Assembly (NCBI RefSeq): GCF_004634425.1
Contig: NZ_SBJL01000001.1
Location: 221,001 to 285,000 of the forward strand
Length of the DNA stretch: 64,000 nt
From: Vitreimonas flagellata
GTDB lineage: Bacteria > Pseudomonadota > Alphaproteobacteria > Caulobacterales > Aquidulcibacteraceae
Direction of reading: 5' to 3'
Shown: in pieces, positions 3,663 through 20,436 of the stretch
How positions within the stretch are numbered: the first letter of the stretch is position 1
How the letters are laid out: every line of letters begins with the position of its first letter
Made by a program: the position numbers and the translations under genes
The notes under the pieces: generated by a model
Told to the model about the DNA's origin: nothing
What the model saw: the letters and a program-made list of their open reading frames with translations, nothing else
Database searches by the model: none

Positions 3663-4486
3663 TCCCGCGCGACTACATCACAGCTTGGCGCAAGAACGCG
3701 CCATGGGTGCAAGACATCCAGGTCGAGCAGGATCTTGTCATCTGTCGCGCGCTTGTCGCCATCTTCTCCCATCCGCTCTTGTCGAAGGCGCTTGCGTTCC
3801 GCGGTGGCACTGCGCTCTACAAGCTCTTCCTGAAGCCGGCTGCGCGTTATTCTGAGGACATCGATCTGGTGCAGGTCGAGGCAGCACCCGCCGGGCCCAT
3901 AATGGACGCGCTGCACGAAGTGCTTGATCCATGGCTAGGCAAGCCGACCTTCAAGCAAAGCGAAGGCCGTGTCACCTTCTTCTATCGCTTTGAGTCAGAA
4001 GGCCAGCCGCCGATCAAGCTCCGGCTCAAGGTCGAGATCAACACACGAGAGCACTTCACTGTCTATGGTCTGGCGACGCAGCCCTTCGCCGTAGACTCGC
4101 CCTGGTTCAAGGGCAAGTGCGCAATTCTCACGTACGAGTTGGACGAACTGCTCGGCACCAAGATGCGCGCACTGCACCAACGCCGGAAGGGACGCGATCT
4201 TCTGGACCTTCATCTCGCCCTGAAAAGCGACGCCGCCGATCCTGCGCGCATTGTCGAGGTGTTTCGTCGTTACATGGACGAGGAAGGCCATCCGACGACG
4301 CGCGCGATGTTCGAGAAGACCTTCGCTGGCAAGCTCGACGATCCGGTGTTTCGCGCCGATATCGCCCCGCTCCTGGCGCCGGGCTACGAGTGGGACATAG
4401 ATGCGGCCGCCGACAATGTGCGCACGCGACTGATCGAAATCTTGCCAGGCGATCCCTGGAAGGGAGACGGCAAGCCGAAGGCGTGA
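3659..4486 (+). CDS. abiEii: AbiEii nucleotidyltransferase toxin (type IV toxin-antitoxin)
   Basis: 275 residues, starting with TTG inside the abiEi stop. The nucleotidyltransferase fold is marked by FRGGTALYKL (about residues 49-58) followed by RYSEDIDLV (about 67-75), which gives the paired acidic residues of the DNA polymerase beta-like active site. Further on is KLRLKVEINTRE, then LDELLGTKMRALHQRRKGRDLLDL, which is also characteristic of AbiEii. Family members transfer nucleotides to RNA targets, including tRNA acceptor ends in characterised homologues, and stop growth during phage infection. No truncation is visible; the length fits the family. Confidence 0.88.
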   Translation: MIPRDYITAWRKNAPWVQDIQVEQDLVICRALVAIFSHPLLSKALAFRGGTALYKLFLKPAARYSEDIDLVQVEAAPAGPIMDALHEVLDPWLGKPTFKQSEGRVTFFYRFESEGQPPIKLRLKVEINTREHFTVYGLATQPFAVDSPWFKGKCAILTYELDELLGTKMRALHQRRKGRDLLDLHLALKSDAADPARIVEVFRRYMDEEGHPTTRAMFEKTFAGKLDDPVFRADIAPLLAPGYEWDIDAAADNVRTRLIEILPGDPWKGDGKPKA

Positions 4487-5067: not shown

Positions 5068-5760
5068 CTATTCCCAGCGCGGGTCGGTGATGCTGAAGAA
5101 GACGCGGGCGGATTTTTTGCCGCCGGCGAGCACGGCGTGTGGCGTCGTGGAGTCGAACTGCAGGCTGTCGCCAACGTCGAGGATCAGCGGCGCGTAATAT
5201 TCGGTTTCGACGATCACGCTGCCTTCCACCACCATCAGAAATTCCTCGCCGGGGTGGGTGACGAAGGGGCCGTGCTCTTCAAGCGAGTGCGCCGTGACTT
5301 CCGCAATCCCCGCCACCATGCGGCGATACAGAAAGTCGGTGCAGAGATATTCGTACTCGCCATTGTTCTGCGACACGCGATGGCCTTCGCCGCGCCGCGT
5401 GACCGTACGCCAGCCGCTGGCGTTCACGGGTTGCTGCGTGCGCGTCTCATCGGAGCGCACCATGCGATTGACGATCTGGCTGAAATCCGCGTCGAGCGCG
5501 CGCGCCAGCGCGTGTGCACGATCGAAGGAGAGCGTGATCTGCCCCGTCTCCACCCGCGAGAGCGCCGATTGCGAAATCTTCGAGCGTTCGCTCAGATCTT
5601 TCAGCGTCCAACCGCGATCGGCGCGCAATTTGCGCACGGCCGCGCCAAAGCTGGCTTGATCGAATGGCGTGTCTTCGCTTGATGTCTCGCGCGCCTCGGG
5701 GCGCGGCTCGGCATTGCCCGTGCTCAGGATCAGATGATTGCGAAGATCACGGACGTCCAT
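5068..5760 (-). CDS. XRE-family regulator with C-terminal cupin (likely D-Glu/peptide island regulator 1)
   Basis: 230 residues. A Cro/C1-type helix-turn-helix occupies about residues 36-95 (VRKLRADRGWTLKDLSERSKISQSALSRVETG). A cupin fold follows at about 155-225, with HPGEEF (169-174) and TPH (206-208) as likely metal or ligand contacts. Such proteins usually bind a small catabolic substrate in the cupin and control an adjacent operon. The start ATG 5760 was chosen over a longer frame because it follows the dgcA stop by 7 nt, which also suggests one transcript with dgcA. It shares its domain order and the HPGEEF motif with the regulator at 15572. Confidence 0.85.
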   Translation of the reverse strand: MDVRDLRNHLILSTGNAEPRPEARETSSEDTPFDQASFGAAVRKLRADRGWTLKDLSERSKISQSALSRVETGQITLSFDRAHALARALDADFSQIVNRMVRSDETRTQQPVNASGWRTVTRRGEGHRVSQNNGEYEYLCTDFLYRRMVAGIAEVTAHSLEEHGPFVTHPGEEFLMVVEGSVIVETEYYAPLILDVGDSLQFDSTTPHAVLAGGKKSARVFFSITDPRWE

Positions 5761-5767
5761 GAATTGC

Positions 5768-6757
5768 CTAGCCCCATAGGTCGCTCGTAAACGGCCCGAC
5801 CACGCCATTCCTGTACGTCATAGCGCCGATGCGGTCAGCCTTCAGTGCGAGCGGGCCGTCCAAATCAGCGATACGCGCCTTCTGCGATACGACAAAAGCG
5901 GGGGCCATAGCTAGAGACGTGCCCAGCATGTTGCCGACCATATAGTCCAGGCCGCGATCCAGAACCGCATCGGCGAGCAGCAGCGCCTCGGTCAGGCCGC
6001 CGGTCTTGTCGAGTTTGATATTGATCATGTCGTAGCGGCGGGCGGCGGCTTCGAACTCGCCGCGATGCAGGCAGCTTTCGTCGGCGCAGAGCGGCACTTC
6101 GCGCGGCATGCCTTCGAGTGCTGCATCCTCGCCGCGCGGCAGCGGTTGCTCGATCATTTCGACTTCGGACTTGGCGAACTCAGGCAGGCATTCCTGCAGC
6201 AGCGCCAACGTCAGGCCTTGGTTAGCGTCCACAATCAGCCGCGCATCCGGGCGCGCGGCGCGCACAGCTCGAACGCGTTCGATCGGACGGTCGCCATTGA
6301 GCTTCAGCTTCAGCAATTTGAAGCTTGAGAGTGCGGCTGCGGCTTTGCCCGTGTCTTCCGGAGTATCCAGCACGCCGATGGTTTGGCAGGTCGTTAGCGG
6401 CCGGCTGTTCAACCCCGTTTGCGCCCATACGCTCTTGCCTGCGCGCTTGCATTCCAAATCCCAGAGCGCGCAATCGACGGCGTTGCGTGCGCCGCCGGGC
6501 GCCAGGAGCGTTTGTAGCGCTTCGCGATCCAGACCGGCTTCAAGCTCGGTGCGAATGGCGTGGATTTGCTCGAATGCCTTGTCGGGCGTGTCTTGCAGAT
6601 AATAGACGCCCGCCGCTTCGCCGCGGCCGATCTGCGGGCCCTCCGCGATCTCCACCACGACGCAATCGAGCGCCGTGAACAAATGGCCCGTAATGCGGAA
6701 GGGGGCCAGCATCGGCCAATGCTCGATATGGATCGAGACCTGTCGTTTCCCGCCCAA
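5768..6757 (-). CDS. dgcA: Enolase-superfamily racemase, N-acetyl-D-glutamate racemase / dipeptide epimerase type
   Basis: 329 residues. The muconate-cycloisomerase/epimerase barrel shows the acid-base Lys in KLK (150-152), metal ligands Asp177 (VDANQG), Glu203 (IEQPLP) and Asp226 (CADES), and the second catalytic Lys248 (NIKLDK). This is the DgcA/L-Ala-D/L-Glu epimerase group. DgcA turns N-acetyl-D-Glu into N-acetyl-L-Glu after DgcN acetylates D-Glu. A DgcN homologue at 16261 favours that reading over dipeptide epimerase. I chose TTG 6757 because GGGAGG lies 5 nt upstream; a longer frame to 6958 adds only low-complexity sequence. It is probably cotranscribed with the XRE-cupin gene downstream. 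Confidence 0.78.
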   Translation of the reverse strand: MGGKRQVSIHIEHWPMLAPFRITGHLFTALDCVVVEIAEGPQIGRGEAAGVYYLQDTPDKAFEQIHAIRTELEAGLDREALQTLLAPGGARNAVDCALWDLECKRAGKSVWAQTGLNSRPLTTCQTIGVLDTPEDTGKAAAALSSFKLLKLKLNGDRPIERVRAVRAARPDARLIVDANQGLTLALLQECLPEFAKSEVEMIEQPLPRGEDAALEGMPREVPLCADESCLHRGEFEAAARRYDMINIKLDKTGGLTEALLLADAVLDRGLDYMVGNMLGTSLAMAPAFVVSQKARIADLDGPLALKADRIGAMTYRNGVVGPFTSDLWG

Positions 6758-7027
6758 GGCGTCCTCCCGCGATCGCGCCGCCGTCCGATGATTTTCGGAG
6801 GTTTGCGCAAATGCAATTACGCACAAAAGGCGGGCAAAATCTACTGTCCGTCGCAAATTATGAAAGCGTTTACGGCGGAGAATGACACTAATAGCATTGA
6901 AAAAACAGGAAAAAAGACAAATTGGCCCGATAATGCAAATATGCAAAAGAACTTGCAAATTCTGAATTGGCAGGCAATCTGGCGGTCTCGGGCGAGCTAG
7001 ACCCCGAGTGGGGAGAGGGTCGACATC
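6758..7027. promoter_or_regulatory. Divergent promoter region, dgcA / serine hydrolase
   Basis: 270 bp without a gene, clearly more AT-rich than its surroundings between about 6800 and 6965. It contains the palindrome TTTGCGCAAA (6802-6811) and several GCAAAT-like words. It lies between two divergent transcripts of the same island, so a shared operator for the XRE-cupin regulators is plausible. No exact promoter boxes can be assigned. Confidence 0.45.
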
Positions 7028-9019
7028 ATGTTGAGCAAGCTGAAAGGCTGGGCAGCGCCCGTTGCCGCGCTAACGCTATTGAGCCTGGGCGCCCTTCAGG
7101 CCAGCGGCCAAGTCGCGCCGACGCCGGAGCAAATTCAGGAAACGGCGGTCGATCCCGCAGCCGCACCTCCGCAAGTGACCAGCGCGGACGTGAACGCTTG
7201 GCTCGACGGCTTCATGCCGTACGCGCTTTCCAACGCTGACATCGTTGGCGCGGTGGTGACTGTGGTGCGCGACGGCCAGGTCGTCGCCAATCGCGGCTAT
7301 GGGTTCGCCAATCTCGAAACGCGTACGCCGGTCGATCCGAACACGACGCTCTTCCGCCCCGGCTCGATCTCCAAGCTCTTCACTTGGACTGCCGTGATGC
7401 AGCAGGTCGAAGCAGGCCGCATCGATCTCGACGCCGACATCAACACCTATATCGATTTCGAAATCCCAGACTACGAAGGCCAGCCGATCACGATGCGTCA
7501 GATCATGACGCATACCACGGGCTTCGAAGAAGTTATTCGCGATCTCATCTCGTCGGACCCAGCGGCTGGCGGTCTCACGCTGGGCGATTATCTCAAGCGA
7601 CGCATCCCGGCGCGCATCTATCCGCCGGGCACGATGCCAGCTTACTCAAACTACGCGACTGCATTGGCCGGTTACGTGGTGGAGCGCGTTTCGGGCGAAT
7701 CCTTTGCCGACTACGTGCACGCGCACATTTTTGAACCGCTCGGCATGCAGCATTCCACCTTCGCGCAGCCGCTGCCGGCGGCGATGAATCCCGCGATGTC
7801 CGGCGGCTATAAGAATGTAGCCGACGGCGAAGCGCAGCTGTTCGAGATCATCCCGGCCGCACCGGCAGGCGCCTTGACCACGACCGGCCCGGACATGGCG
7901 CTCTTCATGAATGCGCATCTCAACGATGGCGCAGGCCTCATGAGCCCGGAAACGGCGCGCCTCATGCACGAGACCATCGACCAGCAATTTCCGGCTGTGA
8001 ACTCGATGGCGCTGGGTTTCTATCAAGAGAATTACGGCGGCCAACGCATCCTGGCGCATGGCGGCGACACGCAATGGTTCCACTCGAACCTGTCGCTGCT
8101 GATGGATCAGAATGTCGGCGTTTATATCTCGCTGAATTCCGGCGGCAGCGCGTCGATGGGCGCGCGTTTGCTGCGCTGGGAGTTCATGGAAGCGTTCGTC
8201 AATCGCTATTACCCGACCGAACGCGGCCCCGATCCGGAGCCGCTCGCCACCGCGCTTGAGCACGGCGCCGCTGTCGCCGGAGATTACGACAGCGCGCGTC
8301 GGGCAGAAACGAGCCCATTGGTCGCTGCGTATTTTTTGGGTCAAACCACGGTGACGATGCTGCCGAATGGCGACCTCGTCGGTCCCGGCTTGCCCGATGT
8401 AAACGGCCAACCGAAGCATTGGCGCGAAGTGGAGCCGTGGGTCTGGCAAGCACTCGGCAGCGGCGAGCGCATGAGCGCGCGTGTTGACGAGAATGGCGTC
8501 GTCACCGCGATCGCCTTCGAGCCGCTCTCGTTTGCGATCCCTTCGACGCGTGCGCCTTGGTATCGCTCGAAATCGCTGTTGCTGCCGCTCTTCGGCGTAG
8601 CGCTCGGCGTGCTGCTCATCACGCTGCTCAGCTGGCCGATCCGTGCGCTGGCGCGCCGCGCCTACAAGACGCCTTTCCCGTACGAGGGCGGCCGCGCGCT
8701 GGCGCATCGCGTGGCGCCCGTCGCCTCGCTGCTGGCCGTCGGCTATATCGGCGCCTGGTTTGCGTTCGTGATGTGGCTGATGGAATCGCTCACCAGCAAT
8801 AGCGGCAGCACCGCGCAGACGCTGTTTACGGTGCTCTACATTTGCGGCCTGTTGCCGATCCTCGCTGTGGCGGGTGCGGCGTTCGCGAATGTCTCGCTCT
8901 GGCGTAGCGCATCGACGTGGTTCGCCAAGATTTGGGGGCTGTTCGTGTTGCTCTCGGCGCTCGTCATTCTGTGGTTCGCCGTGGTGATGAACTTCTTCAG
9001 CTTTGCTTACAGCTACTAA
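7028..9019 (+). CDS. Secreted serine hydrolase (beta-lactamase/CubicO fold) with C-terminal membrane domain
   Basis: 663 residues. A signal peptide (about 1-27) leads into a class C beta-lactamase-like domain with the SxxK nucleophile motif Ser113-Lys116 (PGSISK), the YxN motif Tyr206-Asn208 (PAYSNY) and the third-motif equivalent HGG at 344-346. After about residue 515 come four hydrophobic segments, anchoring the enzyme in the inner membrane with the catalytic domain outside. Relatives include D-aminopeptidases, esterases and PBP4-like peptidases. Its place upstream of a peptide transporter and near dgcA/dgcN suggests cleavage of D-amino-acid peptides. Strong GGGGAGAGGG ribosome binding sequence. 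Confidence 0.8.
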   Translation: MLSKLKGWAAPVAALTLLSLGALQASGQVAPTPEQIQETAVDPAAAPPQVTSADVNAWLDGFMPYALSNADIVGAVVTVVRDGQVVANRGYGFANLETRTPVDPNTTLFRPGSISKLFTWTAVMQQVEAGRIDLDADINTYIDFEIPDYEGQPITMRQIMTHTTGFEEVIRDLISSDPAAGGLTLGDYLKRRIPARIYPPGTMPAYSNYATALAGYVVERVSGESFADYVHAHIFEPLGMQHSTFAQPLPAAMNPAMSGGYKNVADGEAQLFEIIPAAPAGALTTTGPDMALFMNAHLNDGAGLMSPETARLMHETIDQQFPAVNSMALGFYQENYGGQRILAHGGDTQWFHSNLSLLMDQNVGVYISLNSGGSASMGARLLRWEFMEAFVNRYYPTERGPDPEPLATALEHGAAVAGDYDSARRAETSPLVAAYFLGQTTVTMLPNGDLVGPGLPDVNGQPKHWREVEPWVWQALGSGERMSARVDENGVVTAIAFEPLSFAIPSTRAPWYRSKSLLLPLFGVALGVLLITLLSWPIRALARRAYKTPFPYEGGRALAHRVAPVASLLAVGYIGAWFAFVMWLMESLTSNSGSTAQTLFTVLYICGLLPILAVAGAAFANVSLWRSASTWFAKIWGLFVLLSALVILWFAVVMNFFSFAYSY

Positions 9020-9030
9020 GGCGACCCCCG

Positions 9031-10326
9031 GTGAGTCAAAGCGAAGCGGGTGCGGTGAGTTCGGGCAAAGGCCTTTTCGGCCATCCACCGGGACTCACCG
9101 TGCTGTTCCTCACGCAAACTTGGGCTGAGTTCTCGTATTTCGGCCTGCAAGCCATGCTGGTTCTTTACATGACCCAGCAGCTTGGTTTGCCGCAGGCGCA
9201 ATCCTCGATCATCTACGGGCTTTACACGGGCTGCGCGTTCTTCAGCCCATTCATCGGCGGCATCATCGCCGATCGCTGGCTCGGCAAGACCACAAGTGTC
9301 GTCATTGGCGGCTCGCTGATGATGCTCGGCCATTTCGCGATGGCGTTTGAATCGCTACTCTTCCCGGCGCTCGCTTTGGTTGCGATCGGCAACGGTCTCT
9401 TCCTGCCGCCGCTCGCGGTGCAAGTCGGTGCGCTCTATCAGCCGGGCGACGCGCGGCGCGATCAGGCGTTCAGCGCCTATTACATGGGCATCAATCTCGG
9501 CGCCTTCGCCGCAATTATTCTGTGCCCGTTACTGGCGCAGCTTTACGGATGGCATTGGGGCTTCGCCGCCGCCGGCTTCGGTATGGCGCTTGGCCTCGTG
9601 CTCTATCTTGGTTTCAAGAAACATCTGCCGCCCGAGTTGCCGCGCGTGAGCGCGCAAGAGAAAACACGTACGCCTCTGTCAAAGGTCGATTGGAAGGCGC
9701 TGACCACGCTGCTCGGCGTTATCGCCGTCGTCATCCTCTTCCGCATCGCTTACGAGCAGAGCGGCAACACGATCACGCTGTGGCTGAGCGATCGCACCGA
9801 GCGTTCGCTTGGCGGCTTCGAGATTCCCGCGCCCTGGTTCACTTCACTCAACCCGCTACTGATCATCGCGCTGACGCCGCTGCTTATGATCTATTGGCGC
9901 AAGCGCAAAGAGGCGGGGCACGAGCAGAATCTGTTTCGCCGTATGGCGCTGGGCTGTGCGCTCGCAGGGCTTGCGTGCCTTGTCATGGTGGGCGCTGCTT
10001 TGGCCTACAGCGCGGGCGGCGGCGGCGCCGTCAGTTCGCTTTGGGTGATCGCCTATTTCGTGTTGCTGACGCTCGGCGAGCTGTTGGTGCTGCCCGTTGG
10101 CCTCGCGCTCTTCGGCACGCTATCTCCAGTGCAAGTCGCGTCGATGATGATGGGCGCATGGTACATCGCCAAATTCGTCGGCAGCCTCTCGGCCGGCTTC
10201 ATCGGCACGCTCTGGCTGACGATCCCGACCGAATTCTTCTTCGCCATCGGCGCGGGCGCCACGTTCCTGGCCGCGCTCATCCTCTTCTGGATGGGCCGCG
10301 AACGCCTAGCCGCGAACGCGAGCTAA
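9031..10326 (+). CDS. POT/PTR2-family proton-dependent oligopeptide transporter
   Basis: 431 residues from GTG 9031 (AAGG 9 nt upstream; GTG 9055 is an alternative). The frame extends further upstream but overlaps the previous gene. About 12 membrane segments. Family signatures include WAEFSYFGLQAMLVLYM in helix 1, GGIIADRWLGK between helices 2 and 3, and FSAYYMGINLGAF in helix 5. POT carriers import di- and tripeptides with protons. It begins 11 nt after the serine hydrolase stop, so the hydrolase and importer are probably one functional unit: cut the peptide outside, import the fragments. Confidence 0.82.
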   Translation: MSQSEAGAVSSGKGLFGHPPGLTVLFLTQTWAEFSYFGLQAMLVLYMTQQLGLPQAQSSIIYGLYTGCAFFSPFIGGIIADRWLGKTTSVVIGGSLMMLGHFAMAFESLLFPALALVAIGNGLFLPPLAVQVGALYQPGDARRDQAFSAYYMGINLGAFAAIILCPLLAQLYGWHWGFAAAGFGMALGLVLYLGFKKHLPPELPRVSAQEKTRTPLSKVDWKALTTLLGVIAVVILFRIAYEQSGNTITLWLSDRTERSLGGFEIPAPWFTSLNPLLIIALTPLLMIYWRKRKEAGHEQNLFRRMALGCALAGLACLVMVGAALAYSAGGGGAVSSLWVIAYFVLLTLGELLVLPVGLALFGTLSPVQVASMMMGAWYIAKFVGSLSAGFIGTLWLTIPTEFFFAIGAGATFLAALILFWMGRERLAANAS

Positions 10327-10329
10327 GCC

Positions 10330-11454
10330 ATGAGCAACGAGCAGGGCGCGCCGACCTGGTTTCAGCGTTACCTGCTGCCGGGCTTTGCGTTCAAGGGTGT
10401 CGTCATCGGCGGCGGCTACGCGACGGGCCGCGAGCTGGCGGAGTTCTTTCTGCCGCATGGGCCCATTGGCGGCATGCTCGCGATCCTACTCGCCATGCTC
10501 GTCTGGAGCGTCATTTGTGCGCTGACATTCCTGTTGGCGCAGAAGCTCCGCGCGTTCGACTATCGCGCCTTCTTTCGCGGTCTGCTCGGCCGGGCGTGGT
10601 TTCTGTTCGAGATCGCCTACGTGCCGTTCCTCATCTTGTTGCTCGCCGTGTTTGGCGCTGCCGCAGGTGAAATTGGCGCCGCGACCTTCGGCGCGCCTGT
10701 CGTCGTGGGATCACTGACCTTTGTCGCCGCCGTGGCCGCCGTAACCACGTTCGGCAATGACTCGGTCGAAGGTCTGTTCAAGTGGATGACGCTCTTTTTG
10801 TACGCCGTGTACGCCGTCTTCGGCGTGCTCGCGCTAACCTCGTTCGGTAACGACGCGCTGCGCAATCTGACGGGGTCGACACCGGCCGAAGGCTGGGTGT
10901 TGGGCGGGCTCACCTATGGCGGCTACAATCTTATCGGTGCGATCGCGATCCTGCCGATGCTGCGCCATCTGACGACGAAGCGAGATGCGGTTGTGGCCGG
11001 CGCGCTCGCTGGGCCGTTGGCGATCTGGCCGGCGTTCGTGTTCTTTTTCTGCATGCTGGCGTTCTATCCCCAGATCGGCGCCGAGACGCTGCCGTCCGAA
11101 TTCCTGCTGCGCCAACTCGACCTGCCGCTCTTCCACGTCGTGTTCCAGATCATGATCCTGGTTGCGCTGCTCGAGAGCGGCGTTGGCATAGTGCATGGGC
11201 TGAATGAGCGCATCGCCGGCGCCTACAAGGCGCGGCGCGGCAAGACGTTGTCGATGCGCGCGCGCCTCATCATAGGTACGCTCGTTCTGCTTGGATCCGT
11301 GTTCATCGCCGACCGGATCGGCCTCGTGACCTTGATTGCGCAGGGATATCGCGCGCTCGCGTTGACGCTGTTGATTGTGTTCGTCGCGCCATTGCTGACG
11401 CTTGGAATCTGGCGCCTCAGGCGCGCGCCGCAAACAGACACACAGACTGCATAG
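10330..11454 (+). CDS. YkvI-like multi-pass membrane protein (LeuT-fold permease)
   Basis: 374 residues, about ten hydrophobic segments, no signal peptide. The start MSNEQGAPTWFQRYLLPGFAFKGVVIGGGYATGRELAEFF resembles YkvI-type proteins, a poorly characterised relative of LeuT-fold amino-acid transporters, with the glycine-rich break in helix 1. It begins 3 nt after the POT transporter stop, so the two are translationally coupled. From context it could move free amino acids released from imported or externally cut peptides; the direction and substrate are not visible. Confidence 0.65.
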   Translation: MSNEQGAPTWFQRYLLPGFAFKGVVIGGGYATGRELAEFFLPHGPIGGMLAILLAMLVWSVICALTFLLAQKLRAFDYRAFFRGLLGRAWFLFEIAYVPFLILLLAVFGAAAGEIGAATFGAPVVVGSLTFVAAVAAVTTFGNDSVEGLFKWMTLFLYAVYAVFGVLALTSFGNDALRNLTGSTPAEGWVLGGLTYGGYNLIGAIAILPMLRHLTTKRDAVVAGALAGPLAIWPAFVFFFCMLAFYPQIGAETLPSEFLLRQLDLPLFHVVFQIMILVALLESGVGIVHGLNERIAGAYKARRGKTLSMRARLIIGTLVLLGSVFIADRIGLVTLIAQGYRALALTLLIVFVAPLLTLGIWRLRRAPQTDTQTA

Positions 11455-11482
11455 AGGCCAAATGGCCTATGGGAGGTGCGAT

Positions 11483-13081
11483 ATGGGGCGAACCTTGAGA
11501 GCGAGCGTGATCGCGCTGGCGTTTTGTCTTGGCGGGACGGCATGGGCCGACCCACCGGCGAATTTCGACGCGCGCGTCGAAGAAATCCGCAGCCAAGTCG
11601 GCGTGCCGGGTATGGCGGTCACCATCGTTGAGAATGGCCGGGTGACGCTCGCGCATGGCTATGGCGTGCGCCGCTTGAACACCAATGAACGCGTCGATGC
11701 CGACACGATCTTCCAGCTCGGCTCCGTCGGCAAAGCCTTCACGTCCGCAGCACTCGCCGTGCTTGTGGATCGCGGTCAAATTTCCTGGGACGATCGTGTG
11801 ATTGATCACATCCCATATTTCCAAATGTACGATCCATGGGTCACGCGCGAGATGACGGTGCGCGATCTGCTCGTGCATCGCAGCGGCTTGGGGCTCGGTG
11901 CGGGCGATCTCATGTTCGTGCCGCGCTCGTCCCGCTCGCGCGAAGATACGGTGCGGGCGCTGCGCCACATTCGGCCGGCCACGAGTTTCCGCAGTGGTTA
12001 CGCCTACGACAACGTGCTCTACGCTGTCGCCGGCCAACTCGTTGAAGAGGTCTCCGGCAAAACCTGGGAGCGTTTCATGCGCGAAGACGTGCTCGTGCCC
12101 GCCGGCATGCGCACCGCGACCTCCGATCGTGTCGAACGTCGCCGCACGCGCAATCGCGCTTGGCCGCATGGCCGCCGCGACGGGCCGATGGCCGGCATGG
12201 GCACGCAGGAGATGATGGACGATAGCGGCCGCGCCGAATTCGATCCCGAACTCGGCGCCAACGCAGCGCCGGCCGGCGGTGTCGCGGCCAGCGCCAACGA
12301 TCTCGGCCGCTGGATTGCGATCCAACTTGCACACGGCGCCACGCCTGAGGGCGGGCGCCTGTTCAGCGAAGCGCAATCGCGCGAGATGTGGCGCCCGCAA
12401 GTGCACGTGCCGTTCGGCCAGGCGCCTGAGCCTGTCGCGGCCTCAACGCCGCAGTTCAATTCGTACGCGTTGGGCTGGATGGAGCGCGATTACCAAGGCC
12501 ATCGCCTAATCATGCACACGGGCGCGGTGTTCGGCGCGCAATCGATCCTGATTCTGATCCCGGAGCGCAATGTCGGCTTCTCCATCGCCATCAACAGCGA
12601 GGACGGCGAAGCCGCCCTTGGTCTCGCGTATGAGCTGCTCGATCACTATCTCGGCCGGCCGTACTACGATTGGGGCGCAGCGTGGCAGAGCTTCGTGCAA
12701 CAGCGCGATCAACGCGCGGTCGCGACGCTGCAACAGCAGCAGGCGTCACCTGTGCCGTCGCAGCCATCGCTGCCGTTGCAGCGCTATGCCGGCCGCTACC
12801 AAGATGCTTGGTACGGCCCGATGACCATCACCGGCACCGCCGACGGCAAGCTGATGATGGATTTCACGTTGACTGCCGGCATGACCGGCGAACTCACGCA
12901 TTGGCAGTACGACACATTCCGCGTCGACTTCCGCGATCGCCTGATCGAGCCTGCCTACGTTACGTTCGCGCTGAACGCCGAAGGTGCGGTCGATCGTATC
13001 AGCCTCCGCCCGGTCTCGCCGCTCGCGGATTTCAGCTTCGACTATCAGGATCTGAACTTCACGCCGGTCGCTGCCGAATAG
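11483..13081 (+). CDS. Secreted serine hydrolase (CubicO/beta-lactamase family) with C-terminal DUF3471-like domain
   Basis: 532 residues from ATG 11483, chosen for the GGGAGG 6 nt upstream; the open frame continues back into the previous gene. Signal peptide about 1-22, cleaved after GTAWA. Catalytic SxxK is Ser81-Lys84 (LGSVGKAF) and YxN is Tyr175-Asn177 (AYDNVLY). HTGAVFG stands in for the third motif. The last about 100 residues (RYAGRYQDAWYGPMTITG and on) resemble DUF3471, a lipocalin-like add-on seen in CubicO-group peptidases. Second member of its family in this operon, suggesting two different D-peptide or ester substrates. A terminator follows. Confidence 0.78.
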   Translation: MGRTLRASVIALAFCLGGTAWADPPANFDARVEEIRSQVGVPGMAVTIVENGRVTLAHGYGVRRLNTNERVDADTIFQLGSVGKAFTSAALAVLVDRGQISWDDRVIDHIPYFQMYDPWVTREMTVRDLLVHRSGLGLGAGDLMFVPRSSRSREDTVRALRHIRPATSFRSGYAYDNVLYAVAGQLVEEVSGKTWERFMREDVLVPAGMRTATSDRVERRRTRNRAWPHGRRDGPMAGMGTQEMMDDSGRAEFDPELGANAAPAGGVAASANDLGRWIAIQLAHGATPEGGRLFSEAQSREMWRPQVHVPFGQAPEPVAASTPQFNSYALGWMERDYQGHRLIMHTGAVFGAQSILILIPERNVGFSIAINSEDGEAALGLAYELLDHYLGRPYYDWGAAWQSFVQQRDQRAVATLQQQQASPVPSQPSLPLQRYAGRYQDAWYGPMTITGTADGKLMMDFTLTAGMTGELTHWQYDTFRVDFRDRLIEPAYVTFALNAEGAVDRISLRPVSPLADFSFDYQDLNFTPVAAE

Positions 13082-13121
13082 AAGAGAGTCGGGCGCTACG
13101 CTCGGCTCGCGTCAAACAATC

Positions 13122-13155
13122 AAAGCGCGCTCCTCATCGGGGCGCGCTTCTCTTT
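13122..13155 (+). terminator. Rho-independent terminator after the serine hydrolase operon
   Basis: The stem AAGCGCGC (13123-13130) / GCGCGCTT (13142-13149) with an 11-nt loop is followed by CTCTTT. It closes the plus-strand operon that starts at 7028. Confidence 0.7.
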
Positions 13156-13177
13156 GTGCCGCACGCAGGCAATCGCG

Positions 13178-13213
13178 CATAAAGAAGGGGCGGCTGCTTT
13201 CGCAACCGCCCCT
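13178..13213 (-). terminator. Rho-independent terminator after the minus-strand TonB receptor
   Basis: Stem arms AGGGGCGG (13186-13193) and CCGCCCCT (13206-13213). Read on the minus strand the hairpin is followed by TTCTTTAT. It lies 39 bp downstream of the receptor stop and is back to back with the plus-strand terminator. Confidence 0.7.
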
Positions 13214-13251
13214 CGTGCTCCAGGTCAGCCCCCTGACCCTAGAGCATTGTC

Positions 13252-15396
13252 TTAGAAGTTCGCCGTCAGACTTACGCCAATTGTACGCGGGCGCACAAGC
13301 ACCGCGCCGCCGTTCGGCTCGCCAAGCGCATCCGGCAAAGTTTCGCCGAAGCCGCCGAATTGCGTGATCGCACGTTCGTCGGTCACGTTCTTGGCGAACA
13401 GGGCCACCGTAAACGCTTCGAAATCAACGCCGGCGCGCAGATCAAGCAGATTGTAGCTGGGCAATTCGATTTGCTCGGCGCCATAGAGGAAGCCGCCGAC
13501 GCCTGGGAAACCTGTGGATTGCTCGCCCACATAGCGCCATGCGCCGCCGACATAGGCCAACGCATCGCCAAACACCGGCCACTCATATGTGACATCGACC
13601 GTGCTCGCCCATTCCGGCGCGTACGGCAACGGATCGCCCGCAGCGCCGCCCACGACGATCGGGTCGGTGTCGTCGGTGAGTTGCGTATCGGTGTACGCGC
13701 CTGACCAGGCAATCGTCAGCGCGTCCGATGGCGTAAACGTCGCCGCCCATTCCACACCTTGGCTTTCGGCGCCGCCGCCATTGGCGTTGCCGGAGACTGC
13801 GCCGTCGAACACCAGCAACTGAATGTCGCTCCACTCGATGTGGAACGCGGCTGCATCCAAACGCAGAATGCCGTCGACGAGATCGGTCTTGACGCCAACT
13901 TCGTAATTGACGGTCTCGTCCGGATCGAACGTGGTGGGAATGACGCTCGGTGCGCCGAGAATGTTCGGGCCGCCGGGGCGATAACCGCTAGCGATGCGGG
14001 CATAGATGGTCGTCTGATCATTCGGGCGCCAACGCGGCGCGATCGAATAGGTGATCGCATCGTCGCTGGAGGTTTCGCCACCATTGCTCACTGCGGTGCC
14101 GCCTTGGGTCATCCGTTGCTCGTTCTCGGCGTAGCGTGCGCCCACGGCGACGTCGAATTGCGGTGTGAAATGATAGGTGACGCCGCCGAACACAGCGCGT
14201 TCTGTGTATTCGGAATCGATGGTGGCGGTGAGGCCGCTCACCGTTCCTGGCGGCGTGCCGAAGAAAATCTCCTGATCGAGCAGGGCGTTTTCGTTCGTGT
14301 AGAAAGCGCCGATCAGCCATTCGAGTGATCCTTCGCCGTTCGAGGCGAGGCGGACTTCCTGCGTGAACTTGTCTTGCGGAATATCCTCGTCGAGGAACGA
14401 CGGTAGACCAAACGCCAGCGTGCCGTCCTCAAGGTGCGCTTGCTCAAGTTCGCTGTAGCTCGTGGACGAGATCAACGAAACCCCGCCCAGATCCCAATCG
14501 ATCGTGCCGTTCAGAATGCGGTAGGTAACGTCTGACGATACGGAGAACGGGCTGAACTGATCGGTGTCGCCAGCGACGGGATCAAGTGTTTGGAAATAGG
14601 CGACTGAATCAGTGCCTTCGCTTTCGATGTCTTGCTGCTGCGCCGACAGGCGAATGGTGAGGTTTTCGGTGGCGTTCAACAGGAACGCCGCGCGCCAGCC
14701 AGTGGTTTCCACGCCATTGACGTCTTCGATGCCGCGATCCGGATCGTCGACATAACCGCCTTCCGAGCGGCGCAGCGCGCTCAGGCGCAACGCCGCCTGA
14801 TCGCCAAGCGGAATGTTGACCATCGCGCGCGTCGCCCAGGTAGAATCGCCGCCTTCGGTGGCTTCCACCGTGCCGCTGGCGCGGCCGAAGAATTCGCCCG
14901 GCTCCGGCGCTGCGGTCACGAACTTCAGGATGCCGCCCAGGGTGTTAGCGCCATAGAGCGTGCCTTGCGGGCCACGCAATACTTCGATGCGCGCCACATC
15001 ATAAGGATCAAGGTCGAGCGCGAGGACGGCGGCGTTGGCGAGTGACGTGCTCGAGCCGAACGGCGTTTCATCGACATAGATGCCGACGGTGGACGCCACA
15101 CCGCCCGTATTCAGGCCGCGCAGCGTGACGCGCGAATTGCCCGGCTGACCGCCCGTGACGGCAAGGCCCGGCACCTGACCCGCATAATCGTTGAAGTCGC
15201 TCGCCTGCAAACGCTCCAGCGTTTCATCGGTGATCGCCGTAATCGATTGCGGCACGTCGCGCAGACGTTCCTCGCGCTTTTGCGCCGTGACGACAATTTC
15301 TTCGTGCGCGTTGTCTTGCGTTTGTGCCTGCGCTTCAGCCGCCAGAGGCAGCAAGGATGCCGACGCCGCGAGTGCGATGGCCAATCGGACGAACAT
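13252..15396 (-). CDS. TonB-dependent outer-membrane receptor
   Basis: 714 residues from ATG 15396 (GGGGAG upstream). Signal peptide about 1-23 ending AEAQA, then a TonB-box-like EEIVVTAQKREE. A plug domain follows (VPQSITAITDETL, and later VEVLRGPQGTLYGANTLGG in the usual form RIEVLRGPQGTLYG), then a beta-barrel ending in the terminal aromatic residue (LTANF). It imports a bulky or scarce substrate across the outer membrane using TonB energy. It is divergent from the XRE-cupin/dgcN operon, so its ligand may be a D-Glu-containing peptide or muropeptide. That link is inferred from position only. Confidence 0.88.
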   Translation of the reverse strand: MFVRLAIALAASASLLPLAAEAQAQTQDNAHEEIVVTAQKREERLRDVPQSITAITDETLERLQASDFNDYAGQVPGLAVTGGQPGNSRVTLRGLNTGGVASTVGIYVDETPFGSSTSLANAAVLALDLDPYDVARIEVLRGPQGTLYGANTLGGILKFVTAAPEPGEFFGRASGTVEATEGGDSTWATRAMVNIPLGDQAALRLSALRRSEGGYVDDPDRGIEDVNGVETTGWRAAFLLNATENLTIRLSAQQQDIESEGTDSVAYFQTLDPVAGDTDQFSPFSVSSDVTYRILNGTIDWDLGGVSLISSTSYSELEQAHLEDGTLAFGLPSFLDEDIPQDKFTQEVRLASNGEGSLEWLIGAFYTNENALLDQEIFFGTPPGTVSGLTATIDSEYTERAVFGGVTYHFTPQFDVAVGARYAENEQRMTQGGTAVSNGGETSSDDAITYSIAPRWRPNDQTTIYARIASGYRPGGPNILGAPSVIPTTFDPDETVNYEVGVKTDLVDGILRLDAAAFHIEWSDIQLLVFDGAVSGNANGGGAESQGVEWAATFTPSDALTIAWSGAYTDTQLTDDTDPIVVGGAAGDPLPYAPEWASTVDVTYEWPVFGDALAYVGGAWRYVGEQSTGFPGVGGFLYGAEQIELPSYNLLDLRAGVDFEAFTVALFAKNVTDERAITQFGGFGETLPDALGEPNGGAVLVRPRTIGVSLTANF

Positions 15397-15571
15397 GGAA
15401 ACTTCTCCCCCTGATACGGAGCGGGTGAGGTCGCCCGGACCCGCCTTCAGGCTAACAGACACCACAATTTCCACTTACGCAATAGTTTTGCGAAAACGCA
15501 GAAAATTCGCGCAACACTGTGGTGTTGATGTAAACTCGCGGTTACGCTTGGGCCAACGGGAGGAATCCGAG
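15397..15571. promoter_or_regulatory. Divergent promoter region, TonB receptor / XRE-cupin-dgcN
   Basis: The region holds TTTTGCGAAAA (15486-15496), TTCGCGCAA (15506-15514) and the dyad CAACAC-TGTG-GTGTTG (15512-15527). The TTTGCG core is also present in the dgcA/serine-hydrolase divergent region. These are candidate operators for the paired XRE-cupin regulators. GGGAGGAA at 15559-15566 is the ribosome binding site of the regulator gene. Confidence 0.45.
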
Positions 15572-16252
15572 ATGTCCGACACAAGTGGTGTCAGCCAGGC
15601 GCGGCCGGGGGCTGTGATCAAGGAGCAGCGCTTGCAGCGCGGCTGGACCTTGGCCGAAGCCAGTGAGCGGACCGGCATTCCCATTTCGACCTTGTCTCGC
15701 GTTGAAAACGACAAGATTTCATTGGGTTATGATAAGCTCGTCAAGCTCAGCCAAGGCTTGGATATCGACATTTCCCGGCTCTTCGGCGGCGCCGACGCGC
15801 CCGTGCAGCGCGCCGTCACCGGCCGGCGCAGCGTCACCCGCAAGCACGAAGGCCGCGCCATCGAGACCCCAAATTACAGCCACCGTTACGTCGCCGCCGA
15901 TTTGCTCAACAAGAGCTTCATTCCGGTCGTGGCCGAACTCCGCGCCCGCAGCCTTGAAGAATTTGGCGAGCTGGTGAGCCATCCCGGCGAGGAATTTGCC
16001 TATGTCGTGGAAGGCACGGTCGACCTCTACACCGCGCTCTACGCGCCGGTGCGCCTCAATGTCGGGGACTCGATCTATTTCGACAGCGGCATGGCGCATG
16101 CCTACATCGCAGTCGGCGAGGGCGTGTGCCGTGTGCTTTCGATCTGCACCGGCGCCGAGGCGCAATTGGTGGCCGCCACGGAGCGCCAAACTCCGAAGGC
16201 TGAACCCGTTGTCGTGCCCGCGTCGCCGCGCCGCATCAAGGCGGCTGGCTGA
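15572..16252 (+). CDS. XRE-family regulator with C-terminal cupin (likely regulator of dgcN and the TonB receptor)
   Basis: 226 residues from ATG 15572. Helix-turn-helix at about 10-70 (IKEQRLQRGWTLAEASERTGIPISTLSRVEN), then a cupin domain at about 120-190 with HPGEEF (137-142) and the second motif around GMAHAYIA. Same architecture as the protein at 5068 but only partly similar in sequence, so an old paralogue. It precedes dgcN by 8 nt, so the two share a transcript. The conserved cupin histidine and glutamates suggest ligand sensing, plausibly of D-Glu or an N-acetylated derivative. Confidence 0.85.
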   Translation: MSDTSGVSQARPGAVIKEQRLQRGWTLAEASERTGIPISTLSRVENDKISLGYDKLVKLSQGLDIDISRLFGGADAPVQRAVTGRRSVTRKHEGRAIETPNYSHRYVAADLLNKSFIPVVAELRARSLEEFGELVSHPGEEFAYVVEGTVDLYTALYAPVRLNVGDSIYFDSGMAHAYIAVGEGVCRVLSICTGAEAQLVAATERQTPKAEPVVVPASPRRIKAAG

Positions 16253-16260
16253 TCTCCTCC

Positions 16261-17268
16261 ATGCTCGATCTCCCGCGTCCGTACCTTCTCTTCCTCGGCG
16301 ACATCGCTGAGCGCGGTTACGCCAAGACCGCGCTCGGGCTGCGCGATTGGGCGCCCGAGCATTGCATCGGCGAGTGGACTTTGCCCGGCGGCGTCAGCAT
16401 CGACCTGCCGCGTCTCTCACCCGCCGAAGCGAAAGCGGCCGGCGCGCGCGCTCTCGTGATCGGCGTCGCCACGCCTGGTGGCGCAATCCCCGCGCATTGG
16501 CTGCCCGTCTTGATCGAAGCGCTCCAAGCGGGCCTCGACATTGTCGCGGGCATGCATGCGAAGCTCAACGACATGCCAGATCTGCGCGCCGCCGCAGCGC
16601 GTCTCGGTCGTCAACTCATCGATATCCGCACGCCGCCGCCGAACATTCCGATCGGCGACGGAAAAAAGCGCAGCGGCAAACGCCTGCTTACCGTCGGCAC
16701 CGATTGCGCGCTGGGGAAGAAATACACAGCGCTCGCGCTCACGCGGGCGTTCGTGGCACGCGGCGTACGTGCAGATTTTCGCGCCAGCGGCCAGACCGGC
16801 ATCATGATCGCGGGTGGCGGCATGCCGATGGACGCGGTGGTCGCGGACTTTGCCGCGGGTGCGGCAGAAATGCTCAGCCCCGCCAACGATGCCAATCATT
16901 GGGACGTCATCGAAGGGCAGGGCGCGCTGCATCATCCCGCTTACGCCGGTGTGTCGCTCGCGTTGCTGCACGGATCTCAGCCCGACGTGATCGTGCTCTG
17001 CCACGATCCATCGCGCCAATACGTGCTCGGCTATACCGACTACGCTCTGCCGGATCTGCGCGAAGCCATCGATCTCACGCTCCGCCTCGGCGCCCGCACC
17101 AATCCCAACATCCGCTGCGCGGGCGTCAGCATGAACACGTCCGCGCTCAGCGAAGCCGAAGCACTAAAGCTCTGCGCGCAAACCGCCGCCCAGCTCGCGC
17201 TCCCCGTCGCCGACCCCATCCGCGGCGGCGCGGCGTTTGAAGCGCTGGTGGAGGCTTGCCTCGCCTAG
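16261..17268 (+). CDS. dgcN: DUF1611-family protein, D-glutamate N-acetyltransferase DgcN type
   Basis: 335 residues, usual length for the family. An N-terminal domain (about 1-130) is followed by a P-loop-like GTDCALGKK (146-154), then ASGQTGIMIAGGGMPMD and a VIEGQGALHHPAYAGVSLALLHGSQPD block, all typical of DUF1611. In Pseudoalteromonas this family member, DgcN, acetylates D-glutamate, and DgcA then racemises the product. That lets bacteria use D-Glu from peptidoglycan or from marine D-amino acids. Here dgcN and dgcA are about 9.5 kb apart rather than adjacent, but each has an XRE-cupin gene beside it. The last step, deacetylation to L-Glu, has no candidate gene in this window. Confidence 0.75.
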   Translation: MLDLPRPYLLFLGDIAERGYAKTALGLRDWAPEHCIGEWTLPGGVSIDLPRLSPAEAKAAGARALVIGVATPGGAIPAHWLPVLIEALQAGLDIVAGMHAKLNDMPDLRAAAARLGRQLIDIRTPPPNIPIGDGKKRSGKRLLTVGTDCALGKKYTALALTRAFVARGVRADFRASGQTGIMIAGGGMPMDAVVADFAAGAAEMLSPANDANHWDVIEGQGALHHPAYAGVSLALLHGSQPDVIVLCHDPSRQYVLGYTDYALPDLREAIDLTLRLGARTNPNIRCAGVSMNTSALSEAEALKLCAQTAAQLALPVADPIRGGAAFEALVEACLA

Positions 17269-18009: not shown

Positions 18010-18236
18010 CTCCAACACAACCGCAAACCGCGTAGAGCTCCGCTCCACGCGGGCGCCGGCGCATGTCCGCATTCTAAACACGTCAAACTGCCCCGATCCC
18101 ATTTCCCACCCCCAAAGCGCTCTCAAAAAGATATTCACGCACGCGATAGTGAATGTTGACAGCGCCTCTGTTTGGTGGCTCACTCGCGTTCAGTGGAGCG
18201 ACCGGCGGTTATGATCGGCGCCCAGGGGAGGAAAAG
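18010..18236 (+). promoter_or_regulatory. Promoter region of the TonB receptor-esterase operon
   Basis: The region contains an inverted repeat ATTCAC (18133-18138) / GTGAAT (18149-18154) with a 10-nt spacer, immediately before a TTGACA box (18156-18161). The TetR protein encoded at the end of the operon is a candidate binder. GGGGAGG just before 18237 is the ribosome binding site. Confidence 0.4.
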
Positions 18237-20384
18237 ATGAGGGCGATACTTCTCGCGTCGGCTTGCGCCGCCGCACAGATCGCGGCTGCCTTGCCGGCCT
18301 TTGCGCAAAACGCGAGCGATCAGAGCGATACCGACAACGAGATCGTCGTCACGGCCGAGCGCCGCAGCACTAATATTCAAACCACGCCGCTCGCCGTCAC
18401 CGTGCTGAGTGGTGAGGATTTGGAAAACCGCGGCGTCACCACGGTCGACCAGCTGCAATTCGTGGCCCCAGGCGCCACGGTCAACAATTTTGGCCAAGGC
18501 ATCGATTTCAACATTCGCGGCATCGGCAAAGCCGAGCACAACACGCAGACGACGACGGGCGTCATCACCTATCGCGACGGCGTCGCCACCTTCCCAGGCT
18601 ATTTCACCGCCGAACCGTATTACGACATCTCGCGCGTTGAAATTCTACGCGGGCCGCAAGGCACGTTCGTCGGCCAGAATGCCACGGGCGGCGCCGTGTT
18701 CGTCACCTCGCGCGATCCGGTGATCGACGGCGGTTATCACGGCTACATTCAGGGCCAAGTCGGCAATTACAATTTGGTCGGCGCGCAGGGCGCGATCAAT
18801 CTGCCGCTGACGGATACGCTGGCCGCACGCGTCGCCTTCAATACGGATTCACGCGATAGCTTCTACGACATCACCGGGCCATATAGCGGCGATGACGGTA
18901 TCTTCACCGCGAGCGGGCGGTTCAGCTTACTCTGGGAGCCCAGCTCAAATCTCTCCGTCTTGTTCAAGACCGATCTGAACTATCTCGACCTCAGCGCTTA
19001 TCCGGCAGAGCCCATCTTCTACGACGACGAGCCATTCGACATTACCTCGAACGCCGATTGGGCCGCGCTCGATCGCTTCGTGCGCTCAACGCTCCGCGTG
19101 GATTATGAATTCGGCAACGGAATCACGCTGCGTTCGGTGAGCGGCTACCAGGAGGGCAACACGATCTATCGCGCCGATCTCGACGGCACGAGTATCGGCG
19201 TCAACACCTTCCGCGACGACGTCGATGAGACGATCTATTCGCAGGAATTCAACCTGATCTCGCCGGATGACGGCGCGATCACCTGGATCCTCGGCGCCTA
19301 TTATCAGCACGACGAATACAATTTCCTCCCGGGCGAATTCGTTATCGGTCTGCCGGAAGGCAGCCCGTTCAGCGAATACGTGCTCGACGGCACGAACCCG
19401 AAGGAGACTTCGGCGCTGTTCGGTCAAGTGACGTTCGATCTCAGCGATAGCCTCGAACTGCAAATCGGTGCGCGTTACGCCGAAAGCAGCACCGAGAACT
19501 TCATCAATGTCAGTCAATACGGCATTCCGATCGTTCAGAACCAGCAAGCGGATTGGTCGAACCTCTCCGGCAAGGTCGCGCTGAATTGGACGATCGACGA
19601 CCACAATTTCGTTTACGGTTATGTGGCGACGGGCTTCCGCCCCGGCGGTCTCAACGTGCCGGTCAGCCTATTCGGCTCTACCATTACGCTCGAACCATTC
19701 GACGAGGAATTGGTCACGAACTACGAGATCGGCTGGAAGGCCGGTTGGTTCGATGGCCGCCTGCGTACGCAGATCAACGCGTACTACAATGATTACGAGA
19801 ACTTCCAGGTCATCATCGGCTATCCGAACTTCCCCGTTTTCGGCCAGGAAGTTAACGTGCCGAACACGACCGAGATGTACGGCTTCGAAGCGCAGCTTGA
19901 AGCCGTGTTCGGCGCATTCTCGGTCGATGCGGGTCTGGGCTGGATGCACAGTGAGCTCGGTGAGTTTTACGCCACCGATGGCCGCGCTATCTCAGTCACG
20001 CCGTGCGATATTGAGACGGGCCCGTCGAGCGTCTCGTGCATCGCGCTCGCGGGTCGTGAGCAGACCTACGCGCCGGAATTCACCTTCAATATCGGCGCGC
20101 AATATGTGTTCTCGCTGCCGGGCGGCGACACGCTGACGCCGCGTCTGAATTACGGCCACGTCTCCGAACAATGGGCGACGTTGTTCCAAAACGAAGCCCG
20201 CGGCGACCACATCGAAGCGCGCAACATTTTTAATGGTCAGCTCGCGTGGACGCACGGCGACTTCATCGCCACGCTCTGGGCGACCAATCTGACCAACCAG
20301 GAATATGTGGCCGCGCTCAATTCGGGCATGCACTTCTACGGCCCGCCGCGTCAGGTCGGCCTGCGCGTCACGCGGGTGTTCTGA
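18237..20384 (+). CDS. TonB-dependent outer-membrane receptor
   Basis: 715 residues from ATG 18237. Signal peptide about 1-24 ending LPAFA, then a TonB-box-like NEIVVTAERRS. The plug domain includes DFNIRGIGKAE and RVEILRGPQGTFVGQNATGG. The barrel ends in LRVTRVF with a C-terminal Phe. It heads a run of plus-strand genes (MFS carrier, esterase, acyl-CoA synthetase, TetR) with short gaps. The ligand is therefore probably an ester-containing hydrophobic compound that the operon goes on to hydrolyse and activate. Confidence 0.88.
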   Translation: MRAILLASACAAAQIAAALPAFAQNASDQSDTDNEIVVTAERRSTNIQTTPLAVTVLSGEDLENRGVTTVDQLQFVAPGATVNNFGQGIDFNIRGIGKAEHNTQTTTGVITYRDGVATFPGYFTAEPYYDISRVEILRGPQGTFVGQNATGGAVFVTSRDPVIDGGYHGYIQGQVGNYNLVGAQGAINLPLTDTLAARVAFNTDSRDSFYDITGPYSGDDGIFTASGRFSLLWEPSSNLSVLFKTDLNYLDLSAYPAEPIFYDDEPFDITSNADWAALDRFVRSTLRVDYEFGNGITLRSVSGYQEGNTIYRADLDGTSIGVNTFRDDVDETIYSQEFNLISPDDGAITWILGAYYQHDEYNFLPGEFVIGLPEGSPFSEYVLDGTNPKETSALFGQVTFDLSDSLELQIGARYAESSTENFINVSQYGIPIVQNQQADWSNLSGKVALNWTIDDHNFVYGYVATGFRPGGLNVPVSLFGSTITLEPFDEELVTNYEIGWKAGWFDGRLRTQINAYYNDYENFQVIIGYPNFPVFGQEVNVPNTTEMYGFEAQLEAVFGAFSVDAGLGWMHSELGEFYATDGRAISVTPCDIETGPSSVSCIALAGREQTYAPEFTFNIGAQYVFSLPGGDTLTPRLNYGHVSEQWATLFQNEARGDHIEARNIFNGQLAWTHGDFIATLWATNLTNQEYVAALNSGMHFYGPPRQVGLRVTRVF

Positions 20385-20436
20385 TGGCTGGCCAAACGCG
20401 CGCAATCAGCGTTTGCTCATGCGAGGGGAGCTTCGC

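Follow-up and report, generated by a model that had tools for sequence, protein, structure and literature searches.

A putative regulated cluster for scavenging of D-glutamate-containing peptides in Vitreimonas flagellata

A nine-gene cluster around dgcA and dgcN

We analysed a 64-kb stretch of the Vitreimonas flagellata genome (assembly GCF_004634425.1, contig NZ_SBJL01000001.1, positions 221,001 to 285,000 of the forward strand), hereafter the window, whose coordinates are used throughout. Nine genes at positions 5068-17268, all open and full length, were delineated with Pfam and NCBIfam. They probably serve, under regulation, to scavenge peptides containing D-glutamate (D-Glu) or related acidic D-amino acids, a reading to which the gene context lends good support. 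The gene identities, the exported or membrane features of the products and the conserved linkage of the genes were observed directly. The family searches confirmed the identities given in an earlier note on this DNA, i.e. the DgcA and DgcN families, a pair of S12 hydrolases, a proton-coupled oligopeptide transporter (POT), a permease, a TonB-dependent receptor (TBDR) and a pair of XRE-cupin regulators. The features are as follows (AT-core sites are defined below).

5068-5760, minus strand: regA, XRE-family helix-turn-helix (HTH) and cupin regulator, 3′ of dgcA (Pfam HTH_3/HTH_31 and Cupin_2)
5768-6757, minus strand: dgcA, enolase-superfamily DgcA/dipeptide-epimerase-like protein, 329 amino acids (NCBIfam NF042940)
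6758-7027: dgcA/SH1 divergent intergenic region, three AT-core TGC-N6-GCA sites, candidate regulator sites
7028-9019, plus strand: SH1, exported S12 serine hydrolase, 663 amino acids (PF00144, E 1.2e-59)
9055-10326, plus strand: POT, proton-coupled oligopeptide transporter, GTG start inferred (PF00854, E 8.6e-46; TIGR00924)
10330-11454, plus strand: perm, integral membrane protein, candidate D-Glu importer (unmatched in Pfam and NCBIfam)
11483-13081, plus strand: SH2, exported S12 serine hydrolase with C-terminal DUF3471 (PF00144, E 1.2e-65; PF11954, E 6.3e-26)
13252-15396, minus strand: TBDR1, TonB-dependent outer-membrane receptor (PF00593, PF07715)
15397-15571: TBDR1/regN divergent intergenic region, one AT-core TGC-N6-GCA site, at 15489
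15572-16252, plus strand: regN, XRE-cupin regulator (Pfam HTH and Cupin_2), 8 bases upstream of dgcN
16261-17268, plus strand: dgcN, DUF1611 protein, DgcN-family N-acetyltransferase (NCBIfam NF041892; PDB 7xrj)

The starts of regA, dgcA, POT, SH2, TBDR1 and regN were chosen from upstream sequence; that of regA was set at the ATG at 5760, in an open reading frame that opens at 5808, and that of dgcA is a TTG preceded by GGGAGGA. Two divergent gene pairs are centred on 6758-7027 and 15397-15571. Since the gaps between co-directional genes are short (3 to 35 bases in SH1-POT-perm-SH2, 7 bases between dgcA and regA, and 8 between regN and dgcN), four transcription units around two divergent promoters are likely.

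Conservation of the cluster

A congener (genome G122, locus L113) carries the same nine genes in identical order and orientation; its SH2 and TBDR1 are separated by an additional amidohydrolase gene, which is absent from the window. Sphingomonad plasmids (L080-L082) show the arrangement regulator-SH1-dgcA-(POT)-TBDR-dgcN-permease-SH2. Since the set is found again within the genus, on sphingomonad plasmids and at loci of named genomes, the grouping of the nine genes, judged by these comparisons, is not due to chance.

The permease was found in 16 of 150 genomes of the order Caulobacterales, V. flagellata included: in 16 of the 38 genomes with a DgcN match and in none of the 112 without one (Fisher p = 1.6e-11, relatedness ignored). 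Out of 17 permease copies in the order, 11 lie within ~100 bases of dgcN, three more within 7 kb, and three are not near it; one of the latter is at a contig end beside TonB receptor, M19 and SH2 genes (L117), one accompanies POT and S12 genes (L116), and one is near a regN-type gene (L115). The permease profile contained 13 rows, all beside or near dgcN, ten of them from ten of the 16 positive order genomes. Because of this make-up, the absence from the 112 DgcN-less genomes weighs more than the adjacency. A search with the window SH1 as single query listed 33 matches at E <= 1e-70; at our own cut of E <= 1e-146, 17 matches remain, the best and near full-length ones, of which 15 lie no more than 9 kb from a DgcN match (one a partial match), one has only dgcA beside it and one has neither.

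When named genomes were scanned with the same permease profile, subject to the same bias, at least 594 stretches were retrieved, with 536 coding relatives, the best 80 of which were analysed. These came from genera including Sphingopyxis, Sphingomonas, Sphingobium, Lysobacter, Arenimonas, Luteimonas, Steroidobacter and Rudaea. Among the best 80 loci, dgcN was present in 67, in 60 of them no more than 200 bases from the permease. The 61 of these loci longer than 20.5 kb contained SH1 in 60 cases, dgcN and a regulator of the regN/regA type in 55 each, dgcA in 52, a TBDR in 47, SH2 in 44, an amidohydrolase in 40, an M19 dipeptidase in 39 and POT in 11. Of the 61, 59 had an M19 dipeptidase, a D-aminoacylase-like amidohydrolase or both; the window cluster has neither, and the single M19 match of its genome sits on another contig. 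The permease was also found in 14 plasmid records, whose neighbourhoods were covered apart from those of two Paraclostridium records; in four, all sphingomonad, it adjoins dgcN.

The earlier note had described a complete island with a route from outside to inside the cell. The functional grouping and the order of the route gain strong backing from the linkage conserved in the congener, the plasmids and the named loci, and the same gene set does occur in other Caulobacterales, identically ordered and oriented in the congener. As a one-off, the "island" gives way to a widespread operon (the congener, sphingomonad plasmids and loci of named genomes), and "complete" is too strong a word for a cluster without the M19 and/or amidohydrolase genes of 59 of 61 related loci.

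We also considered whether POT and M19 substitute for one another, and dropped the idea. The 61 named loci showed no anti-correlation (p = 0.50); at 21 further loci M19 was present in 0 of 7 with POT and 8 of 14 without (p = 0.018; pooled p = 0.03), a difference that is confounded by relatedness and was not used.

DgcN and the two types of DgcA

DgcN of the window matches PDB 7xrj with an E value of 3.6e-107, and its gene is the only DUF1611 (PF07755) match in the whole genome. In the order, DgcN matches were listed at 50 places in the 38 positive genomes, only five of which pass the NF041892 cut-off; neighbourhoods were taken around 48 of the 50 places (the 45 strongest and three of the five weak or partial ones). 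DgcA has NF042940 as its best family, and its PDB relatives are 4gfi and 1jpd. The earlier assignment of a DgcA homologue thus stands as far as the family is concerned. The name is not specific: the model matches 97 of the 150 order genomes (66 over the cut-off) against 38 for DgcN, so the presence of DgcA alone is little informative. Six catalytic residues of the enolase superfamily (KxK, D, E, D, K), in the roles we take them to have, and the two columns of the DxD pair do not vary in any of the 138 aligned rows. In the window DgcA the DxD pair is DLDG at residue 298; we assume that it lies on the eighth strand and, in known epimerases, binds the amino group of the dipeptide. The pair was tried as a discriminator between racemases and epimerases and dropped, being present in all groups.

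Several observations weigh against a scavenging cluster built on DgcN and DgcA. Both enzymes fall below their equivalog cut-offs: DgcA scores 398.2 bits against NF042940, missing the cut-off of 400 by 1.8, and DgcN 447.5 bits against a cut-off of 480 for NF041892, its sole NCBIfam match. The window DgcA reads GNM where other sampled DgcA-like proteins read GCM. The counts of permease linkage are biased upward because the profile rows were taken beside or near dgcN. At 13 of the 80 named permease loci there is no dgcN within the stretch examined, and among 385 genomes sampled across the class, with at most five candidates scored per genome, the permease was found in five, only two of which, the V. 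flagellata genome being one, have DgcN. One locus (L092) contains SH1, POT, regulator and dgcA genes and neither dgcN nor permease within 25 kb. Finally, locus L124 has the arrangement regulator-SH1-dgcA(Asn)-POT-permease-SH2-amidohydrolase with no TonB receptor hit, in a genome that is 99% complete and yields zero DgcN matches.

The last two loci bear on the strongest alternative, in which DgcA is an L-Ala-D/L-Glu (dipeptide) epimerase, dipeptides derived from muropeptides enter via POT, and DgcN is accessory or serves a second route. We regard this as a genuine possibility, though somewhat on the less probable side. The window DgcA also matches the epimerase model PRK15129, at 253 bits and hence under the cut-off of 343, and its PDB relative 1jpd is such an epimerase; the DxD pair is kept, which, as said, does not discriminate. 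POT and dgcA occur together without DgcN at L124, and with SH1 and a regulator but no dgcN in 25 kb at L092. It follows from L124 that an Asn-type DgcA can persist without DgcN, which fits dipeptide epimerisation. Against this stands the linkage of the two genes: dgcN is present at 55 of 61 related loci, and in the window it lies 8 bases behind regN and ~9.5 kb from dgcA in one cluster; the two are likewise linked in the congener.

The tree of DgcA also argues against a plain dipeptide epimerase. It was built from 65 rows (66 were obtained and one piece of 16 amino acids was excluded), 45 labelled as dgcN-linked and 20 as unlinked; the row of L092 is counted as linked in spite of the lack of a dgcN match in its 25-kb stretch. 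The unlinked rows were taken from among the stronger order matches, 14 from genomes without DgcN and six being second copies away from dgcN in genomes that have it. All 20 fall outside the clade of the window DgcA, and 18 form a branch of their own. The window's clade is of the Asn type (GNM), others being of the Cys type (GCM). Asn was found in 22 of the 45 linked-labelled rows and at L124, and Cys in the other 23, in 20 of 20 unlinked rows and in 9 of 9 class rows, the latter being those of 16 dgcN loci (L128-L143) that supplied a DgcA of more than 250 amino acids. DgcA of L092 has Cys, yet is nested inside the Asn clade. At the permease loci, Asn was present in 60 of 63 DgcA rows from 60 loci, and the three rows with Cys come from second copies. 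The position presumably belongs to the substrate pocket of dipeptide epimerases. Since Asn replaces the Cys of other sampled DgcA-like proteins, the specificity of the Asn type may differ from that of the Cys type.

Tentatively, and with rather less confidence than in the scavenging function itself, we suggest a threefold extension: that the cluster belongs to a widespread undescribed operon for D-Glu peptides, with the gene order regulator - S12 peptidase - DgcA - TonB receptor - DgcN - permease - S12 peptidase - M19 dipeptidase/D-acylase, that perm is a dedicated D-glutamate importer, and that DgcA proteins of the Asn type form a separate subfamily of racemases adapted to the substrate of the operon.

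Hydrolases, transporters and candidate importer

The N-termini of SH1, SH2 and TBDR1, judged by eye, resemble export signals, and the C-terminus of SH1 contains four hydrophobic segments. SH1 has the motifs SISK/YSN/HGG and SH2 the motifs SVGK/YDN/HTG, which we take to be those of S12 enzymes. PDB relatives of SH1 include alkaline D-peptidase, DD-carboxypeptidase and ClbP. POT scores 263.6 bits against TIGR00924, above the cut-off of 130.2. Searches with perm (10330-11454) gave zero Pfam or NCBIfam matches and no credible sequence relative in the PDB. Its N-terminal motif IGGGY-x-TGRE is invariant in 13 of 13 aligned rows; YkvI is probably a name for this protein, and the papers listed under that name gave no functional account. 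Its conserved company makes perm a good candidate as importer of D-glutamate. A possible outlet of the pathway is the one ArgJ match in the V. flagellata genome.

Regulators and candidate operator sites

The two regulators are 41% identical over 198 aligned positions, and regulators of related islands are closer to regN than to regA. We defined an AT-core site as TGC-N6-GCA in which at least four of the six core bases are A or T. Four such sites are present in the 64 kb (6804, 6812, 6934 and 15489), all inside the two divergent promoters. In the congener, two AT-core sites occur in 19.9 kb, both in the dgcA/SH1 gap and aligning with 6804 and 6934; site 15489, before regN, has no counterpart there. 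As background, 47 AT-core sites were counted across 934 kb of order regions. The plain TGC-N6-GCA motif is rarer in the window than expected (28 observed vs 40), and AT-rich gaps favour AT-core sites. Promoters of L080-L082, L092 and L124 contain zero AT-core TGC-N6-GCA sites. The sites are thus a candidate operator of this genus, a lead rather than a result.

Proposed route and alternative substrates

We infer the biochemical steps, the substrate and the regulation as follows. The TonB receptor would bring a D-Glu-containing peptide across the outer membrane, and the two exported S12 hydrolases, one of them anchored in the inner membrane, would cleave it in the periplasm. Free D-Glu would be imported by perm, and small peptides by POT. 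Inside the cell, DgcN would acetylate D-Glu and DgcA would turn the N-acyl-D-Glu into the L form; the resulting N-acetyl-L-Glu could feed arginine/glutamate metabolism, an ArgJ homologue being present in the genome. DgcA may additionally epimerise imported L-Ala-D-Glu, and one racemase could therefore serve both entry routes. On the hypothesis that both activities reside in one DgcA, the DgcN-less locus L124 would be reconciled with the route. The XRE-cupin regulators probably sense substrate or product.

As to the substrate, D-Glu might be just one of several, the cluster being directed at further D-amino acids of the acidic kind or their amides (D-Asp, D-Gln, D-Asn) or at gamma-glutamyl peptides. 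A gamma-glutamyltranspeptidase-type gene lies near 7 of 16 other dgcNA loci of the class; Pfam finds no such gene among the nine of the cluster. We consider this broader range rather unlikely. Microcystin contains D-Glu, and a non-ribosomal or cyclic D-Glu peptide of the microcystin/nodularin type could be the substrate in place of the cell wall, the cluster being kin to the mlr degradation genes. Functional classes of mlr genes (S12 hydrolases, POT, M19 dipeptidase, amidohydrolase) are indeed present in the islands, and 7 of the 48 order regions have M81/MlrC-family genes in the vicinity of dgcN. M81, S12 and POT are, however, large families, and the likeness to mlr is one of described make-up; such a substrate appears improbable. 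Lastly, that the S12 proteins are unrelated esterases or beta-lactamases and mere neighbours is very hard to believe, broad and versatile as the family is, since SH1 accompanies 60 of the 61 long permease loci among the best 80 and 15 of its 17 best order matches lie near a DgcN match.

Relation to known systems

The DgcN-DgcA pathway of D-glutamate catabolism was described by Yu et al. (2023, ISME J), as cited in PMC12363236; PMC10845958 names the DgcN-DgcA route along with eight candidate D-Glu transport genes in Shewanella. The window cluster shares the two enzyme families, DgcN and DgcA being the best NCBIfam models, and differs in adding exported hydrolases, a TonB receptor, POT, an unclassified permease and two regulators, in enzymes that score under the curated cut-offs and in the Asn for Cys in the GxM motif. 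With the L-Ala-D/L-Glu epimerase (1jpd), the window DgcA has in common the family, the catalytic residues and the DxD pair; it differs in being partnered with DgcN and peptide hydrolases, in GNM instead of GCM, and in a clade apart from the 20 unlinked order proteins.

The mlr cluster, according to PMC6256522 and PMC5852478, is mlrCADBEF, with MlrB a putative serine protease, MlrD a putative oligopeptide transporter, and dipeptidase-like and D-aminoacylase-like proteins. By functional class only, the serine hydrolases correspond to MlrB and the oligopeptide transporter to MlrD and, in relatives, M19 to MlrE and the amidohydrolase to MlrF, whereas DgcN, DgcA, the permease and the TonB receptor set the window cluster apart. 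When plasmids were searched for M81, 493 records matched, every one at under 60% identity, and none of the 25 matches listed was named mlrC; a family search in five genomes gave two matches, neither over the cut-off.

SH1 resembles the ClbP-type S12 membrane peptidases (PDB 7mdc and others) in combining an S12 domain with a C-terminal membrane part. ClbP has three membrane segments; SH1 has four predicted ones and a catabolic setting, and ClbP (E 1.2e-16) is not its best PDB match.

In the literature searched, which did not include the founding 2023 paper, neither the operon nor the candidate importer nor the Asn-type DgcA was found described. The DgcN-DgcA pathway is known; judging by that literature, the candidate importer, the set of hydrolases and the Asn-type DgcA seem not to have been described. 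Cell-wall D-Glu belongs to slowly turned-over organic matter. If the proposed function is true, gene markers could be used to follow D-Glu turnover in bacteria of freshwater, soil and the sea, a permease family that neither Pfam nor NCBIfam matches would gain a function, and GNM versus GCM would serve as a one-residue marker of the DgcA subtype.

Other partners of dgcN and neighbouring genes

In the 48 order regions, where unnamed neighbour groups were named from one or two representatives, the genes near dgcN included TonB receptors (28 regions), S12 hydrolases (25), PRK09061-like amidohydrolases (23, every representative under the model cut-off), the permease (14), FCD-GntR regulators (10), M19 dipeptidases (9), SDF glutamate/dicarboxylate symporters and M81/MlrC-type peptidases (7 each), and DUF819 proteins and S58 peptidases (5 each). 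An Enterobacter plasmid (L083) carries dgcN-dgcA with a glutathione-type ABC importer and P1 and M55 peptidases, and the dgcN search also matched 20 Klebsiella and 12 Pantoea plasmid records. One representative of the gamma-glutamyltranspeptidase-type genes near dgcNA at the seven class loci (among L128-L143) was confirmed by Pfam. Judged from these gene contents, the varied partners of dgcNA point the same way, to uptake and hydrolysis of D- or gamma-linked peptides.

DUF1611 was not annotated near the permease relatives of Rhodococcus, Haloterrigena and one Paraclostridium plasmid, and an unannotated Halomarina plasmid record gave no dgcN hit near its relative. Among haloarchaeal relatives of the permease (L084-L087), one is divergent from a DUF1611 gene and three, from Haladaptatus, lie beside a maleate cis-trans isomerase gene.

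Upstream of the cluster, an AbiEi antitoxin/AbiEii toxin pair is located at 2859-4486 (PF09407, PF08843; PADLOC AbiEi, AbiEii), adjoined by a Schlafen AlbA_2 protein gene at 2141-2737. Beyond dgcN, the region 18153-24988 encodes a second TonB receptor, an MFS transporter, a carboxylesterase and an AMP-binding enzyme; one order genome (L072) has close relatives of this MFS transporter (69%) and esterase (59%) beside its own dgcA/dgcN.

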